Shown here in pieces: positions 19,184 to 63,810 of a stretch of DNA of 64,000 bases. This stretch comes from Mucilaginibacter sp. KACC 22773 (GTDB taxonomy: Bacteria > Bacteroidota > Bacteroidia > Sphingobacteriales > Sphingobacteriaceae). The stretch lies in assembly GCF_028736215.1 (NCBI RefSeq), contig NZ_CP117883.1:5518001-5582000 (forward strand), given 5' to 3'. Each line of letters begins with the position of its first letter. Position 1 is the stretch's first letter. Position numbers and translations under genes: made by a program. The notes beneath the pieces were generated by a model, which had not been told where the DNA came from, ran no database searches, and saw only the letters and a list, made by a program, of their open reading frames with translations.

Positions 19184-19286
19184 TCATTGGTCATTGGTCA
19201 TTGGTCATTGGTCATTGGTCATTGGTCATTGGTCATTGGTCATTGGTCATTGGTCATTGGTCATTGGTCATTGGTCATTGGTCATT
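19184..19286. repeat. TCATTGG heptanucleotide tandem array (about 14.7 copies)
   Basis: Fourteen perfect head-to-tail copies of TCATTGG run from 19184 to 19281, followed by a partial TCATT. The array begins at the base after the stop codon of the CCG Fe-S gene and lies between two convergent genes. A perfect array of this kind is prone to slippage, but here it cannot change a reading frame. A reverse-complement region follows at 19338-19408. Confidence 0.9.
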
Positions 19287-56678: not shown

Positions 56679-58391
56679 TTACAGCGCCCTCTTCAATGTA
56701 AAGGCAAACCGGCTCCCTGCCCCTATCTCGCTATCAACCATAATATGGCCGCTTTGGGCTTCAATAAAATCTTTGGCAATGGCAAGGCCAAGGCCGGTGC
56801 CGGTTTGGTCGGCGGTGGCGTTGGGCACTTTAAAGTAGCGCTCAAATAACCTCGACAGGTATTGCTCTTCTATGCCTTTACCATGATCTTTTACCGAAAA
56901 TTCAATCTCGTCGTTCTTATGCTTTTTAACGGTTAGCTCCACAACTGATTTTTCGTGGCTGTATTTTATGGCGTTTGATAACAGGTTGATAAGTACCCAG
57001 GTAGTTTTATCAAGGTCGGCATGTACCTCGGGGAGGGTATCATCGCATTTTACTTTGATGTTTACATGCTTTTGATCGGCTGTGAATTTAATGGCCTTTA
57101 CCGCATAATCAACAATGTTACGGGGGTGTGTACTGCCAAAGTTAAGCTGTAGTTTACCGGTTTCAACTTGTGCCATATCCAGCAGTTCGCCGGTTATTTG
57201 CAGCAGGCGGCGGGCATCATCATCAATATTTTCCAGCAGTTGCCTTTGCTCGGTGTTTACATTACCTATGCGGTCGTCCTCAAGCAATTTCAGGCTCATT
57301 TTTATGGACGATATCGGCGTTTTCAATTCATGCGATATGGTGGCAATGAAATTGGTTTTGGCTTCATCCAACTGCTGGTACTCGGTAATATTTTTAAGGA
57401 TAATTACCTTACCTATCACTTTACTTTTGCTGCTCACAGATAATGAATCGCGGCTGTAAAAGCTTTCGCGGTTATCGGCAAAAATCTTTAACCGTGGCTG
57501 TTCATTTATAAGCAGGTTGCGCAGCAGGTCGTTCTCCAGCGCTATGTCTGGCGCGTACCGGCCGGTAAGCTGTTCGGTGGTCATGCCTATCAGGTTACAC
57601 GCTACTTCGTTGGCAAATATGATAAACTGCTTTTCGTCTAAACCAATAATAGCATCGTGCATGGTATTAATAATAGTCTCTATCCGTTTTTTCTCAAACA
57701 GGATGCTGGCCAGGTTACTGTTCTCGTACTCATCCAGTTTCCGGGTCATATTATTAAAAGCCTGCCCTAATTCGCCAAACTCATCATCGGAGTGAAAGTC
57801 TATCTGCTGGTGGTAATTACGATTTGATACCTCTTTTATCCTTGCTGTTAATTCTTTTAAAGGATCGGCTATATAACCCGGAAAATTTACCGCAAAAGTG
57901 AACGCGATAGTAAACAATAAAAAAGCACTGACGGCCACCAGCACATTTGCCCTGCTTGCCGTATCAGTGGCGATGGCATTTTTTCGAGAAATTGCATCCA
58001 TATTCAGGTGCATGATACCATAAATAAGCCGGCGGGCATGGCTCCTTAAAGGCAATTGCGCTGCTATATTGTTATTATGCTGCTTTATCTGCGTGTAAAC
58101 AAGCGTCAACGAATCTGTTAATTCCTGCTCGCCCTTTTCTGTAACATTATGTTGCTGCAGTTTAAGGTTATTGTCGATAACCGCAATTTGTTTTGGCGAA
58201 AGCGCCTTATCATTCGCATCGATAGCATCCTGCATGTTTTGGGTAAACTGCAGGGTTTTATAATTATCCTTAAGTATTGCCCCGGCATCGGCCGACAGGC
58301 GGTTAAGGAAGTAAACAGATAATCCGCAACAGGTGAGCGCCAGTACAAACAAGAAACCGATGCCTGTACGGAGTTTATTTTTAATAGTCAT
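56679..58391 (-). CDS. Sensor histidine kinase of the kdp locus (HAMP-PAS type)
   Basis: 570 residues. Transmembrane helices near 10-29 and 148-168 flank a periplasmic segment, followed by HAMP (about 170-222), PAS (about 232-340), HisKA with His354 in TISHELKTPIS, and a HATPase with LLSNAIKYS, VKDHGKGI and GTGLGLAIAKDF. It starts two bases after the stop of the kinase-less KdpD sensor gene and is certainly translated with it. The likely role is to supply the kinase half that the sensor gene lacks. No KdpE gene follows; any partner must lie outside the visible operon. Confidence 0.9.
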   Translation of the reverse strand: MTIKNKLRTGIGFLFVLALTCCGLSVYFLNRLSADAGAILKDNYKTLQFTQNMQDAIDANDKALSPKQIAVIDNNLKLQQHNVTEKGEQELTDSLTLVYTQIKQHNNNIAAQLPLRSHARRLIYGIMHLNMDAISRKNAIATDTASRANVLVAVSAFLLFTIAFTFAVNFPGYIADPLKELTARIKEVSNRNYHQQIDFHSDDEFGELGQAFNNMTRKLDEYENSNLASILFEKKRIETIINTMHDAIIGLDEKQFIIFANEVACNLIGMTTEQLTGRYAPDIALENDLLRNLLINEQPRLKIFADNRESFYSRDSLSVSSKSKVIGKVIILKNITEYQQLDEAKTNFIATISHELKTPISSIKMSLKLLEDDRIGNVNTEQRQLLENIDDDARRLLQITGELLDMAQVETGKLQLNFGSTHPRNIVDYAVKAIKFTADQKHVNIKVKCDDTLPEVHADLDKTTWVLINLLSNAIKYSHEKSVVELTVKKHKNDEIEFSVKDHGKGIEEQYLSRLFERYFKVPNATADQTGTGLGLAIAKDFIEAQSGHIMVDSEIGAGSRFAFTLKRAL

Positions 58392-58393
58392 GG

Positions 58394-59521
58394 TTATGAT
58401 AGTATTACAAGGTCTATATCAGTTTTTGACATTTTATTTAACAATTGGGTAAAAACCGCCGTTTTCATAATAACCTGGTAAAATTTAAAGCGTGGCTTAC
58501 CCAGGCAGATAGTGGTAATGTCGTACTTTTCGGCCGTTTCCCAAATGGTTTGGGCTATACGGTCGCTTTTTATTTTAATTACTTCGCCGCCCAGTTGTGT
58601 AGCCAATTTCATGTTATTAATGAGGTGGCGCTGCGAAGCCAGGTTTATTTTATCGCTGCTCTCTCTTGAGGTTTGCACATACAAAACAAAAAATTTAGAG
58701 CGGTAATATGATGACAACCTTGCTGTTTTACGAATAATTATTTTAGCCGATTCGTCATTGGTACTAATGCAGGCCAAAAAAAGCTCGGGCCTTAGTTTAA
58801 TGGTTTTGGGTATCTCAATATCTATCTTCCGCTCTACCTGGTGGGCTACTTCGCGCAGGGCCAGTTCGCGCAGCTGTAGAATTCTATCGGCCTGGAAAAA
58901 GTTGTTGAGCGCCATCGGCACTTTTTTCTCGTCGTATATTTTGCCTTCCTTTAAGCGATCTATCAGTTCGTCGGCAGTAAGGTCGATGTTTACTACCTCG
59001 TCTGCCAGTTGCAACACCTTATCGGGGATCCGCTCGTTTATTTTGGCCCCGGTTATCCGTTCCACCTCTTCGTTCAGGCTTTCCATATGCTGGATGTTTA
59101 CCGCGCTGATCACATTGATACCCGCGTTTAATATCTCCAGCACATCCTGCCAGCGTTTTTCGTTGCTGCTGCCTTCAATATTTGTATGTGCCAGTTCATC
59201 AACCAAAACCACCTCGGGACGCAGGCTAATGATGGCTTTCAAATCCATCTCCTCCAGCTCCTTACCTTTGTAAAACAGTTTGCGGCGGGGTATTACCGGC
59301 AAACCTTCTAATTGGGCAACGGTTTCTTTGCGGTTATGCGTTTCTATGTAGCCAATTTTAACGTCGATGCCGTTACGCATCAAAGCCTGGGCTTCCTGCA
59401 GCATGCGGAAGGTTTTGCCCACACCCGCGCTCATGCCTATGTAAACCTTGAATTTCCCGCGCCTTGATTTTTTTATCAGCTCCAGGAAATGCTCAACCGA
59501 TCGTTCTTTTTCGCCGTCCAT
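58394..59521 (-). CDS. kdpD: KdpD N-terminal sensor protein (no kinase domain)
   Basis: 375 residues, compared with about 900 in Escherichia coli KdpD. It contains the KdpD sensor domain (about 23-230) with Walker A GMSAGVGKT (29-37) and Walker B VVLVDELAHTN, and a Usp-like domain (about 245-375). The four helices and the histidine kinase of full KdpD are absent. The protein should be cytoplasmic and sense low potassium or turgor-related signals. A separate histidine kinase begins two bases downstream, so the sensor is split over two polypeptides. Split kdpD is known in some Bacteroidota. Confidence 0.9.
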   Translation of the reverse strand: MDGEKERSVEHFLELIKKSRRGKFKVYIGMSAGVGKTFRMLQEAQALMRNGIDVKIGYIETHNRKETVAQLEGLPVIPRRKLFYKGKELEEMDLKAIISLRPEVVLVDELAHTNIEGSSNEKRWQDVLEILNAGINVISAVNIQHMESLNEEVERITGAKINERIPDKVLQLADEVVNIDLTADELIDRLKEGKIYDEKKVPMALNNFFQADRILQLRELALREVAHQVERKIDIEIPKTIKLRPELFLACISTNDESAKIIIRKTARLSSYYRSKFFVLYVQTSRESSDKINLASQRHLINNMKLATQLGGEVIKIKSDRIAQTIWETAEKYDITTICLGKPRFKFYQVIMKTAVFTQLLNKMSKTDIDLVILS

Positions 59522-59536
59522 ATTTCTATTAAGTTA

Positions 59537-59694
59537 TTGTCATTTCGAACGAGGTACGAGGAGAAATCTTCGACACCTTACAATTCGACTATTCATATCG
59601 ATAACCTGGCGTCGAAGATTTTTCGCTACGTCCAAGAGATAGTTTCTCTTTTGCTCCCCCGCGCTTTACCTCTCCGGCTCTTTCGAAATGACAA
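59537..59694. repeat. TTGTCATTTCGAA-bounded palindromic element in the kdp operon
   Basis: Exact 13-nt terminal inverted repeats, TTGTCATTTCGAA (59537-59549) and TTCGAAATGACAA (59682-59694), close a 158-nt element. A nested inverted repeat (AATCTTCGAC and GTCGAAGATT) lies inside. It occupies the gap between the porin and kdpD genes. Confidence 0.75.
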
Positions 59695-59852
59695 ATTTCA
59701 TTTGATTAAGTATGTAGATAATATACTTCTCTCTTAAACTAATAAAAGGGAGAGCCCTCGCGGCCCCCCTTTTAAGGTATGAATGTTTCTCAAACTAACA
59801 TATAATTAAACCAAAATTAACTATACAACCATTCATACATATCTTTATTAAA
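59695..59852. other. Remainder of the porin-kdpD gap
   Basis: AT-rich sequence with one GC-rich spot near 59747-59777, where AAAAGGG can pair with CCCTTTT. This could end transcripts from the porin gene in part. No gene is seen. Confidence 0.35.
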
Positions 59853-60902
59853 TTAAAAAGCGTACACCGCTGCCAGCACAAATTGCGAGGCAGTTTTAGT
59901 CGGGTCGCCCGAGTTATTTTTAAACGCGTTTGCCGATCCATTGTCGACCCTAAACTCGGGTATCAATGCCAGCGGACCAGCCTTAATATTTGCTGTAAAA
60001 GTTACTGCTGTTACATTTTCGCCGGGGGCAGGCGCGGCTGTAGAGGTATAGCTGCCGGTTTTTGTTTTAAAGTACTCGCCCCTAAGGCCTAATGTTACAT
60101 CTTTTGAAACCGCGTATTGCGGATACAACGCCACCCCGTTAAAACCTCCTGTTATGCCATTGTTAGCTTTATAGTCGGCAGCGTTTAAGCCTAATTTAAA
60201 GGCATCTGTTATTTGGTAGGCTGTGGTCAAATCAAATTCTGTCCCCTGTAAACCACCTGTAATAACATTCAGATAAGCTGTCCACCCCTTTACCGGGATA
60301 ACCGTTAGCTGAGCGCCAAAATTGTTAACCCTTTTGGTAGCTTGGTAGGCATTCCAGTTATCGTTAAATGCCCCAACCATCAGGCTTATTTTATCGGTAA
60401 AAGCATAGGTTGCCTTTACGCCAGCATTCTGGAACGGGCCATTAGTGAACAGATACGATGTGGAATAGTTAAAATTACCAACAGGGCTTATCACCTCATA
60501 GCCAATAAAAGTTGCCATATAACCACCGGTAAGGGTTAATTTATCGGTTACATCATACGCTACATATAGATTTTGGATATGATACGAGTCGCCGTTTGGC
60601 CCGTTAGGTACGGATTGCGCCTGCCCCCTTGGGCCAAAAGACATTTCGCCTAAAAAGGCAGCTTTACCAACTTTCTTCTTAACCCCCAGGTCTATCATCC
60701 CAATCGAAACTGAATTTTGGTCGGTAGCAAAACTGGTAGGGATCTGGCTGCCTTTATCAGCAAAGTCGTATTTATAATAAGTATCAACCGATCCAAAGAT
60801 CACCAATGGCGCATCGGATGTTGTTTTAACAGTGTCCTGGGCTTTGGTTATCAAAGCGCTTAATAGTAAAAATGCAGGTATTAATATGAAGGTCTTTTTC
60901 AT
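59853..60902 (-). CDS. Outer-membrane beta-barrel porin in the kdp operon
   Basis: 349 residues with a signal peptide (LITKAQDT). The rest is alternating beta-strand pattern, Gly- and Tyr-rich, ending in the aromatic strand FVLAAVYAF, as in outer-membrane barrels. It resembles the OmpL-like beta-barrel porin-2 family (BBP2). Its place between kdpC and kdpD, on the same strand, suggests that it lets K+ through the outer membrane to the KdpABC pump. That role is inferred from context only. It might also be a sugar or general porin. Confidence 0.82.
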   Translation of the reverse strand: MKKTFILIPAFLLLSALITKAQDTVKTTSDAPLVIFGSVDTYYKYDFADKGSQIPTSFATDQNSVSIGMIDLGVKKKVGKAAFLGEMSFGPRGQAQSVPNGPNGDSYHIQNLYVAYDVTDKLTLTGGYMATFIGYEVISPVGNFNYSTSYLFTNGPFQNAGVKATYAFTDKISLMVGAFNDNWNAYQATKRVNNFGAQLTVIPVKGWTAYLNVITGGLQGTEFDLTTAYQITDAFKLGLNAADYKANNGITGGFNGVALYPQYAVSKDVTLGLRGEYFKTKTGSYTSTAAPAPGENVTAVTFTANIKAGPLALIPEFRVDNGSANAFKNNSGDPTKTASQFVLAAVYAF

Positions 60903-60931
60903 TTATGTATAAAAATCATTTACTTTTTCAG

Positions 60932-61032
60932 TTCCCCTCTCGAGAGGGGGTGCGTTGGGATTGTGCGGTAGCAGGGGTGTGTTATGCCATTTCGCGGGTT
61001 AAACACACTCCTCCCCCCTCTCAAGAAGGGAA
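60932..61032. repeat. CCCCTCTCGAGAGGGG palindromic element in the kdp operon
   Basis: TTCCCCTCTCGAGAGGGG at the left end is matched by the diverged complement CCCCTCTCAAGAAGGGAA at the right. Inside, GGGGTGTGTT (60974-60983) pairs with AACACACTCC (61002-61011). The 16-nt CCCCTCTCGAGAGGGG (60934-60949) is a perfect palindrome. It fills the gap between kdpC and the porin gene. Confidence 0.7.
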
Positions 61033-61071
61033 TAGCACTTGGCCCCGCTTTTTTTAACTACTTAAAGAGGG

Positions 61072-61638
61072 CTATTTCTTTAGCTCGTCCAATGCTACAT
61101 TCAACTTCAGTACGTTTACTTTTGATGGGCCAAATAAGCCAAATAATGGTTTTTCGGTATGCTCATCAACCAGTTTGGTTACAACATCGGCAGATAGGCC
61201 ACGTACTTTGGCAACACGGGCTACCTGTACCTTTGCGCCTGCAGGCGAAAGATCAGGATCTAACCCACTACCCGATGCGGTAACCAGTTCGGCAGGGATC
61301 TGGGCACGGGTTACACCGGGATTATGCTTTAAAAAATCCTGGATGCGGCCATCAACCTGTTTCAAATAATCGGGGTTTGAAGGGCCTTTGTTTGAACCTC
61401 CCGAACCGGCAGCGTTATAATCAACAGCCGACGGGCGGCTCCAGAAGTATTCGTCCTTAGTAAATTTTTGACCTTCGTTGGCATAACCAACTACGCGGCC
61501 TTTGTATGTTACGGTTTCCCCATCGCCATGGCCGGGAGTCAATTTACCAACACCGGCTATAGCTAATGGATAAATACCGGCTGTAATTACTATCAGGATG
61601 ATAGTTAACTTGATTGATGGCAACAAATATGTTTTCAT
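61072..61638 (-). CDS. kdpC: Potassium-transporting ATPase subunit KdpC
   Basis: 188 residues. One N-terminal membrane helix (about 9-29) precedes a periplasmic domain with the KdpC motifs FWSRPSAVDYNAAGSGGSNKGPSNPDYL and ELVTASGSGLDPDLSPAGAKVQVARVAKVRG. KdpC is a small subunit that stabilises the KdpFABC pump. It follows kdpB after 144 nt on the same strand. The gap contains the GAGATATGAG word array. Confidence 0.95.
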   Translation of the reverse strand: MKTYLLPSIKLTIILIVITAGIYPLAIAGVGKLTPGHGDGETVTYKGRVVGYANEGQKFTKDEYFWSRPSAVDYNAAGSGGSNKGPSNPDYLKQVDGRIQDFLKHNPGVTRAQIPAELVTASGSGLDPDLSPAGAKVQVARVAKVRGLSADVVTKLVDEHTEKPLFGLFGPSKVNVLKLNVALDELKK

Positions 61639-61647
61639 TTTCTTTTT

Positions 61648-61780
61648 AGATTTGAGATATGAGACTTGAGATATGAGATTTCCTTATCTCACATCTTTTA
61701 AATTGGATCTGAGTGCTTTGATATGAGATTTTCGACATTCTTTTTTTGTCTCAAATCTCATATCTCACCTCTCAAATCTC
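61648..61780. repeat. GAGATATGAGATTTGAGA word array, inverted arms
   Basis: Left arm 61648-61681 repeats TTGAGATATGAGA; right arm 61748-61780 repeats CTCAAATCTC. TGAGATATGAGATTT (61667-61681) and AAATCTCATATCTCA (61753-61767) are perfect 15-nt complements. Further single words (ATCTCACATC, ATATGAGATT) lie between. The array sits in the gap between kdpB and kdpC. Confidence 0.8.
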
Positions 61781-61782
61781 TT

Positions 61783-63810
61783 CTATATAAATACGCCTAC
61801 GGCAAGGTCAATTAATTTAATACCGATAAATGGTATCAGTATACCACCAAGGCCGTAAATCAACAGGTTACGGCGTAGCAACGCACTGGCACCTATCGGT
61901 TTATATTCCACACCACGTAAGGCCAACGGTATCAGCAACGGGATAATGATGGCATTAAATATCACTGCCGATAATATGGCCGATTCGGGGCTGTGCAATG
62001 CCATGATATTAAGCGCCCTTAATGATGGTATAGATACCATGAATAAGGCAGGAACAATAGCAAAGTACTTGGCTACGTCATTGGCTATCGAGAAGGTAGT
62101 AAGCGTACCGCGGGTCATCAGTAATTGTTTACCAATCTCTACAATCTCAATCAGCTTGGTTGGGTCGTTATCCAAATCAACCATGTTACCGGCTTCTTTG
62201 GCTGCCTGGGTACCGCTGTTCATGGCTACACCAACATCGGCCTGAGCCAATGCTGGGGCATCGTTTGTACCGTCACCCATCATGGCTACCAGTTTGCCGC
62301 CTTGTTGTTCTTTTTTAATGTAGTTCATTTTATCCTCGGGTTTAGCCTCGGCAATAAAATCATCCACACCTGCTTTTTCAGCAATAAATTTGGCAGTTAA
62401 AGGGTTATCACCGGTAACCATTACCGTTTTAACGCCCATTTTACGCAGGCGGTCAAAACGTTCGGCAATGCCGGGTTTAATAATGTCCTGTAATTCAATT
62501 ACGCCCATTATCTTCTCATTTTGCGATACCACCAGCGGTGTACCACCATTCGACGAGATTTTTTTAACGTTATCCTCAACCTCGGTTGGGAAAGCGTGAC
62601 CAGCCTTTAAGGCAATGTTACGGATAGAATCAAAAGCACCTTTACGGATGCGTAAACCATCGGGCGTATCCAAACCGCTTGAGCGGGTTTCGGCGGTGAA
62701 TTTTATAAATACCGAATTTGCAGGGGCAACCACTTTAGGTAAGGTTTTATCCTCGTTGGCAAGTTCCACTATCGATTTACCTTCGGGGGTTTCATCGGCC
62801 AGAGAACTTAATACACATGCGGCTACAAAGCTGGCGTTGCTAACACCTGTGGCGGGGTAAAAATTGGTTGCCTTACGGTTACCAATAGTAATGGTACCTG
62901 TTTTATCTAATAACAAGGTATCCAAATCGCCTGCAGTTTCAACCGCTTTACCGCTTTTGGTTATCACGTTTGCGCGTAATGCCCTATCCATCCCGGCAAT
63001 ACCGATGGCCGATAACAGGCCACCGATAGTGGTTGGGATAAGACAAACAAATAATGAGATGAATGCGGCAATTGTTATCGGGGTATTTGAATAATCGCCA
63101 AAAGGTTTCAGGGTAACGCACACAATAACAAAGATGAGCGTAAAGCCTGCAAGCAGGATAGTTAAAGCTATCTCGTTTGGTGTTTTCTGGCGCGATGCAC
63201 CTTCAACCAGCGCAATCATCTTATCCAAAAAGCTTTCGCCGGGCTGGGTGGTTACCATAACCTTTATCTTATCGGATAATACTTTGGTACCACCGGTCAC
63301 TGATGATTTATCACCGCCAGATTCGCGGATAACCGGGGCAGATTCACCTGTGATGGCCGATTCGTCGATGGTAGCAATACCTTCAATAATCTCGCCATCG
63401 GTAGGGATATTGTCGCCTGTTTCGCATATAAACACATCGCCTTTTTTTAACTGGCTCGACATTACCATGGTTTCCTTACCGTTAACCAGTAAGCGGGCGG
63501 GAGTTTCCTCGCGGGTTTTGCGCAGGCTTTCGGCCTGGGCTTTACCACGTGCTTCGGCGATAGCTTCGGCAAAGTTGGCAAACAGCACGGTAAGCAACAG
63601 TACCAAAAACACGGTGAAGTTATAGGCAAAGCTGCCCTGTCCTTTATTTGCAAAGGAAAATATAGTTACAATAAGCATTACTGCCGTTCCTATTTCAACG
63701 GTAAACATAACCGGGTTACGGAACAGTATGCGTGGGTTTAGTTTGATGAACGACTGTTTAAAAGCCTCTTTCATCTGATCGCCCTGAAATAATGTATTTG
63801 AGGTTTTCAT
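61783..63810 (-). CDS. kdpB: Potassium-transporting ATPase subunit KdpB
   Basis: 675 residues. It is the P-type ATPase subunit of the high-affinity K+ pump. Landmarks are the actuator motif TGES (154-157), phosphorylation site Asp302 in [36 protein letters not shown] and [21 protein letters not shown]. Length and spacing match Escherichia coli KdpB. It begins two bases after the kdpA stop codon. Low potassium should induce the operon; the control region is outside this window. Confidence 0.97.

Follow-up and report, generated by a model that had tools for sequence, protein, structure and literature searches.

The kdp system is a standard model of K+ sensing, and a kdp operon of a Mucilaginibacter strain lies on the minus strand of the stretch of DNA analyzed here (the window), which covers 64 kb of a single-contig genome of 7.54 Mb. 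Gene and domain calls bore out the gene order of the initial annotation as well as its lengths for the three wide gaps that separate kdpB, kdpC, a porin gene, and kdpD (144, 169, and 331 nt), and the kdpA/kdpB and kdpD/kinase junctions were likewise found to be 2 nt each. The three wide gaps are indeed occupied, at the positions originally assigned, by three different inverted-repeat families, which are designated here by letters (the labels A to D are introduced in the present analysis). The 331-nt gap also holds a fourth element, conserved and RNA-like (59737-59839), which was absent from that annotation. In the direction of transcription, the features of the locus are as follows.

61783-63810, minus strand: kdpB, with P-type ATPase domains
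61648-61780, no strand assigned: repeat family C in the kdpB-kdpC gap, 7-nt words (GAGATAT and variants) arrayed on two inverted arms
61072-61638, minus strand: kdpC (PF02669)
60932-61032, no strand assigned: repeat family B in the kdpC-porin gap, an inner inverted repeat flanked by paired CCCCTCTCGAGAGGGG-like palindromes
59853-60902, minus strand: BBP2 porin (PF07642)
59737-59839, minus strand: conserved structured RNA (kdpD intercistronic RNA), between the porin gene and kdpD
59838-59830 with 59785-59777, minus strand: P1 of the RNA, window fold
59827-59817 with 59809-59799, minus strand: P2 of the RNA, window fold
59774-59743, minus strand: P3, a GC hairpin followed by a T-rich tail, window fold
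59537-59694, no strand assigned: repeat family A, in the segment that separates the RNA element from kdpD, with TTGTCATTTCGAA ends and nested inverted repeats
58394-59521, minus strand: kdpD (PF02702), sensor domain only, 375 aa, with the RNA element directly upstream
56679-58391, minus strand: separate sensor kinase with HAMP, PAS, HisKA, and HATPase domains, lying 2 nt downstream of kdpD

The sensor is split within 56679-59521, where the KdpD domain stands alone in kdpD and the HAMP/PAS/HisKA kinase is a gene of its own.

The array of repeat C lies 2 nt from the kdpB stop codon, and its arms (61648-61678 and 61749-61779) are 84% complementary; the 7-nt words run in tandem on both arms (lag 7, z 7.8), the two arms being inverted relative to each other. 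The arms of the CCCCTCTC element B (60932-60950 and 61014-61032) are 89% complementary, and those of the TTGTCATTTCGAA element A (59537-59553 and 59678-59694) 94%. For each of the three gaps, an equally good inverted repeat was obtained in 0 of 40 dinucleotide shuffles, and the RNA folds of B and C are far stabler than those of shuffled sequences (z -6.5 and -6.6, 0/200 each). In a pattern scan of the 64-kb window, paired copies of the A, B, and C words were confined to the kdp gaps, with single partial matches elsewhere. As in MITEs, terminal inverted repeats are present in A, B, and C; with regard to the target-site duplication of MITEs, the swapped gaps of two relatives, OK283 and G312, show no clean empty site. 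A TA target duplication was also considered for the C array, the ends of which resemble TAGAT...ATCTA, and could not be established. Three more inverted arrays of 7-nt words occur in other gaps of the window, at 19274, 41964, and 43134, with words of the GGTCATT, TGGTTCA, and GATTTCG types.

The frequency of such repeats in this genome was estimated from the window and 40 sampled 8-kb stretches, which were chosen around repeat hits and annotated with a crude gene caller; gaps of 100-700 nt with an inverted-repeat score of at least 12 were counted, the window and the targeted gaps being left out. At this score, the sampled stretches yielded inverted repeats in 32 of 77 gaps between same-strand genes, 14 of 19 between convergent genes, and 2 of 22 between divergent genes. 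Given 32/77, the chance that all three kdp gaps carry one is approximately 0.07, and by this base-rate measure the presence of inverted repeats in all three gaps is not special. In the window itself, 6 of 11 same-strand gaps reach a score of at least 12, the three kdp gaps among them. BLAST searches of the genome gave 15 matches for A, 18 for B, and 42 for C (the query and its own arms counted in); 8 of the 18 matches of B extend over at least 100 of the 116 nt of the query, and those of C, besides the query, fall at the arms. The 26 gap copies of A and B counted in the sampled stretches together with the window are distributed over 16 same-strand and 10 convergent gaps and avoid divergent ones (0/26 versus 34 divergent among 181 wide gaps, p 0.01), and most copies would therefore be transcribed; one further B piece sits within a called small ORF. 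The copies of C do not shun divergent gaps (10 same-strand, 2 convergent, and 4 divergent, n = 16), and 2 lie within called genes. A word period (z of at least 4) was detected in 29 of 87 inverted repeats from the sampled gaps, with a period of 7, 8, or 14 nt in 24 of the 29; among controls made of shuffled arms and their reverse complements, 11 of 87 passed, 3 of them at 7, 8, or 14 nt (p 0.002 for each comparison), so that the threshold itself is leaky. Several word sets with periods of 7 and 8 occur side by side in the sampled gaps of this genome.

The repeats resemble described families to different extents. REP elements are located mainly between unidirectional and convergent genes, according to two reports (PMC3733652, PMC6006769). 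Like the REP elements and REPINs of those reports, A and B are short, often paired palindromes with copies in same-strand and convergent gaps; unlike the REPINs associated with RAYT that are described there, A and B have 15 and 18 BLAST matches only. An origin of A and B from a RAYT was considered and not supported, as no match to A, B, or D with two or fewer mismatches was found at three Y1_Tnp loci (3162-3303 nt, approximately 1.5 kb on each side, one Y1 match having an internal stop), where C is represented just by single words with mismatches. Heptamer arrays have been described in Xanthomonas and Nostoc, those of Xanthomonas including inverted pairs (PMC4692102), and TAACTGA heptamer repeats are also reported (PMC4679880). 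Repeat C shares with the heptamer arrays covered there the degenerate tandem 7-nt words between genes and the variation between close relatives (PMC4692102, PMC4679880), and its two inverted arms bring it close to the inverted heptamer pairs of Xanthomonas (PMC4692102); its words are of the GAGATAT type, unlike the G-rich quadruplex type in those accounts (PMC4692102, PMC4679880).

Gap-by-gap comparison of very near strains provides a natural experiment on repeat turnover in Bacteroidota. The nearest named relative, Mucilaginibacter sp. OK283, is of the same species (kdpB DNA identity 97.7%), and its first two gaps differ from those of the window by one base each, with B and C kept; not all of the repeats are therefore short-lived. 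In its third gap, A is absent and CCCCTCTAAATC-type repeats, which are frequent elsewhere in the genome of the window (60 matches), flank an unchanged RNA core on both sides, the RNA element being identical to that of the window over about 104 nt. In the near relative G312 (KdpB protein identity 99.6%), the C array is present, the porin gene, B, and A are absent, and CCCCTCTAAATC-type repeats again lie around the same RNA core. The porin gene (59853-60902) has no match in the kdp operon of G312 (L222), and some other species (L038, L050, L061, and L068-L073) have 2.2-3.0 kb between kdpC and kdpD with another gene in place of a porin match. The kdpB-kdpC gap measures 12 to 192 nt at the 49 kdp loci compared within the Mucilaginibacter set, and 23 of the 49 gaps have no array; the C array of the window is kept in OK283 and G312, with losses or changes in more distant relatives. 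The state of this gap, mapped onto a kdpB tree of the 49 rows (28 of its 46 inner branches starred and 10 open), requires at the fewest 17 changes and the presence of any array 11. The word array often abuts the kdpB stop codon in this set. Among the 26 rows with a word array, this codon (61783-61785 in the window) is TAG in 13, whereas none of the 23 array-free rows uses TAG (Fisher p 4e-5); correction for relatedness weakens the link (median sign-test p 0.06 over 10 independent pairs).

Two explanations were originally offered for the filled gaps, namely that they are preferred landing sites of several families or that the repeats process or pace the mRNA so that the subunits are made in unequal amounts. 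The comparison of kdp gaps in relatives supports one part of the former, as different families enter and leave the same gaps in different species and repeats are lost, halved, or swapped. The word "preferred" does not hold up against the base rate outside kdp (32/77 wide same-strand gaps in the sampled stretches) or against the kdpB-kdpC gaps without an array (23/49), and a special attraction of the kdp gaps is therefore unlikely. Pacing of the mRNA by A, B, and C themselves could be argued from the stable folds of B and C (the two repeats folded), from the avoidance of divergent gaps by A and B, and from the near identity of B and C in OK283. Against it, A is absent in OK283 and G312 and B in G312, almost half of the kdpB-kdpC gaps (23/49) contain no array, the same families lie beside other genes, and C also occupies divergent gaps (4/16 gap copies). 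Selection on the C hairpin was also tested, by exchanging arms between species: over all 25 kdpB-kdpC gaps of at least 60 nt, a gap's own arms pair better with each other (0/5000 permutations), but not within one word type, where 14 GAGATAT-type arrays gave an own-arm pairing of 16.6 versus 17.5 between species (4615/5000 permutations as high). The result for the 25 gaps therefore reflects word type, and the C arms are without covariation within one word type. The absence of A and B in near relatives and the behavior of the C arms thus make pacing or processing by the repeats very improbable, and the candidate for an RNA element that sets unequal amounts is the segment 59737-59839, not the three repeats.

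In an alignment of 21 kdp loci, this segment comprises P1 with 9 pairs, P2 with 10 pairs, rich in A/T, and the P3 GC hairpin, and a conserved unpaired strand runs between P2 and P1 on the 3' side of P2. RNAalifold predicted 25 pairs, of which 11 have changes on both sides with pairing kept. Among 26 aligned matches (81 sources), 96.0% of the cells pair, and 80 double changes were counted versus 28.6 +/- 6.3 after shuffling (0/500); when the partner was slid by 1-3 columns, pairing fell to 46-54%. Changes on both sides were found in 8 of the 9 pairs of P1 in these matches. In 20 distinct held-out rows, which are distinct from the training rows although some are perhaps near kin, and the alignments of which were fitted to the model and thus favor the structure, pairs form in 412 of 444 cells, and double changes number 59 versus a shuffled mean of 24.0 and a maximum of 35 in 1000. 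The genomic placement of the matches is free of this model-fit bias. Three sequences of the RNA element were also folded and are stabler than their shuffles (z -4.4 to -5.3). Stop codons alone do not dismiss a protein-coding function of the element, as 8 of 42 distinct rows contain a frame without any stop; both the paired changes and the varying lengths argue against such a function.

The RNA element has a restricted distribution and a constant place. The model gave one match in the genome of the window (the next at E 0.62). Among 301 genomes of the family, 17 matches were obtained in 17 genomes, all in one genus of 25, and 16 of the 17 lie directly upstream of kdpD; among 149 genomes of the genus, 49 matches occur in 48, and 47 of the 49 share the strand of kdpD and directly precede it, by 6-215 nt. 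Of the two exceptions, one is in G374, where no kdpD is listed on the contig concerned, and the other is in G273 (E 0.0088). Conserved, covarying structure and a constant place, two of the properties of a cis-acting structured RNA, are thus both found at 59737-59839. Among 69 kdpD genes with identities of 80% or more, the element was found before 40 and not before the other 29, and it was not found in 101 of the 149 genus genomes; together with the lack of matches outside the genus in the family scan, this indicates that kdp can do without it, although both genome scans were strictly filtered and may have missed divergent copies. At 26 loci, the distance from the end of the element to kdpD is 16 to 215 nt, and its start lies 20 nt or less from the upstream stop codon in 8, with P1 beginning 2 nt inside that stop codon in 3. 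The listed repeat patterns occur in the 5' flank in 6 of the 26 loci, in the 3' flank in 9, and inside the RNA element in 0, the last count being biased because the model could miss a copy broken by an insertion; in the flank of the window itself, the "word" flag is a chance match and A is the real repeat.

With Rfam 15 at the gathering thresholds, only a tRNA was found, elsewhere in the window, and no family was assigned to 59737-59839, the best sub-threshold match over the RNA motif being BTnc231 (17.5 bits versus 80.4). All Rfam matches in the kdp stretch (E up to 10) are sub-threshold; the best scores there came from miRNA models over the word array and were attributed to chance. Among the literature matches listed, mostly open-access papers, no description of the kdpD intercistronic RNA or of repeats A-C was found. 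The RNA may thus be undescribed, as judged from Rfam 15 and from the matches listed in the literature searched. In Bacillus thuringiensis, a c-di-AMP riboswitch in the 5' UTR controls the kdpFABC operon, and it is studied with a view to bacteria that lack kdpDE (PMC6488665). The present RNA is similar to that riboswitch in being a structured RNA with a terminator at a kdp operon, the terminator being a candidate here, and differs from it in lying after the pump genes and before kdpD and in belonging to no Rfam 15 family (PMC6488665).

Bacteroidota promoters consist of TTTG, a spacer of 17-23 nt, and TANNTTTG as the -7 half. From 200 nt upstream of the RNA element to kdpD, no full TTTG-N17-23-TANNTTTG was found at any of the 26 loci, and this result, together with the loci at which P1 begins inside the stop codon (3/26), indicates that the RNA element most likely lies within the operon mRNA. 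A lone TANNTTTG box is present within the element in 14 of 26 rows, and for this reason the element may contain an internal kdpD promoter. In the window, P3 and its tail score as terminator-like on the minus strand (59769-59749); across the 26 rows, however, the tail contains only 3-6 T out of 8 and is thus short in many species, and P3 might terminate weakly or not at all. Inspection by eye revealed no antiterminator pairing.

Based on the structure, its covariation, and its position, a possible working of the locus was proposed, in which the segment probably acts as an intercistronic attenuator or mRNA-end element between the pump and sensor genes and the repeats are mostly passengers. The repeats would belong to dispersed inverted-repeat families that gain and lose positions, and would occupy places where additional DNA is tolerated in the operon, downstream of stop codons and upstream of start codons. 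The single structured RNA would separate the pump genes (kdpABC and the porin gene) from the sensor genes (kdpD and the kinase). In a shared mRNA, the P1/P2 domain with its conserved unpaired strand could fold, and the P3 hairpin could then end or slow transcription or mark the end of a stable pump mRNA; with read-through limited in this way, possibly under the control of a ligand or protein, the sensor would be made in a smaller or regulated amount. More tentatively, and with rather less confidence than we place in an attenuator or mRNA-end function as such, the element could represent a new class of regulatory RNA that senses a K+-related signal or the state of the sensor system, sets the amount of sensor per pump mRNA, and stays intact amid repeat turnover. 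A covarying RNA that separates transporter genes from sensor genes inside an operon would offer a simple means of setting the sensor-to-pump ratio, and the use of relatives as a test here allowed likely passengers to be told apart from a conserved element within one operon.

The main rival to an attenuator is a protecting 3' hairpin. Without any attenuation, P3 would protect the 3' end of a processed kdpABC-porin mRNA, P1/P2 would be a cleavage or protein-binding site, and the sensor mRNA would be less stable. The short T-tail in many species, the folding of the element sequences (z -4.4 to -5.3), and the place between pump and sensor genes are all consistent with such protection, while the terminator-like score of P3 in the window speaks against it; this explanation is a credible one, though we do not consider it the probable one. 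Alternatively, the conserved element may work as DNA, as a kdpD promoter, operator, or attachment site, to which the fairly constant AT-rich palindrome of P2 and the lone TANNTTTG box (14/26 rows) could be assigned. However, the letters of P1 change on both sides in 8 of 9 pairs with pairing kept, which a promoter or operator would not need, and a matching TTTG is absent 17-23 nt upstream in 26 of 26 rows; a function as DNA instead of RNA is thus hardly to be expected. An attenuator or mRNA-end element remains the preferred reading of 59737-59839.

In other Bacteroidota, namely Niastella, Solitalea, and Larkinella (L083, L086, L088, L094, L107, and L112), the kdp gaps contain inverted word arrays of their own, built of other words. 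Near-perfect hairpins with arms of approximately 50 nt occupy the gap upstream of kdpD in Fibrella rubiginis and a Cytophagales genome (L109 and L079, respectively). Three strains appear to possess two kdp loci each (L038/L049, L040/L053, and L052/L055), and in L049, L053, and L055 a plain hairpin with a T run lies just before kdpD in place of the conserved RNA element.
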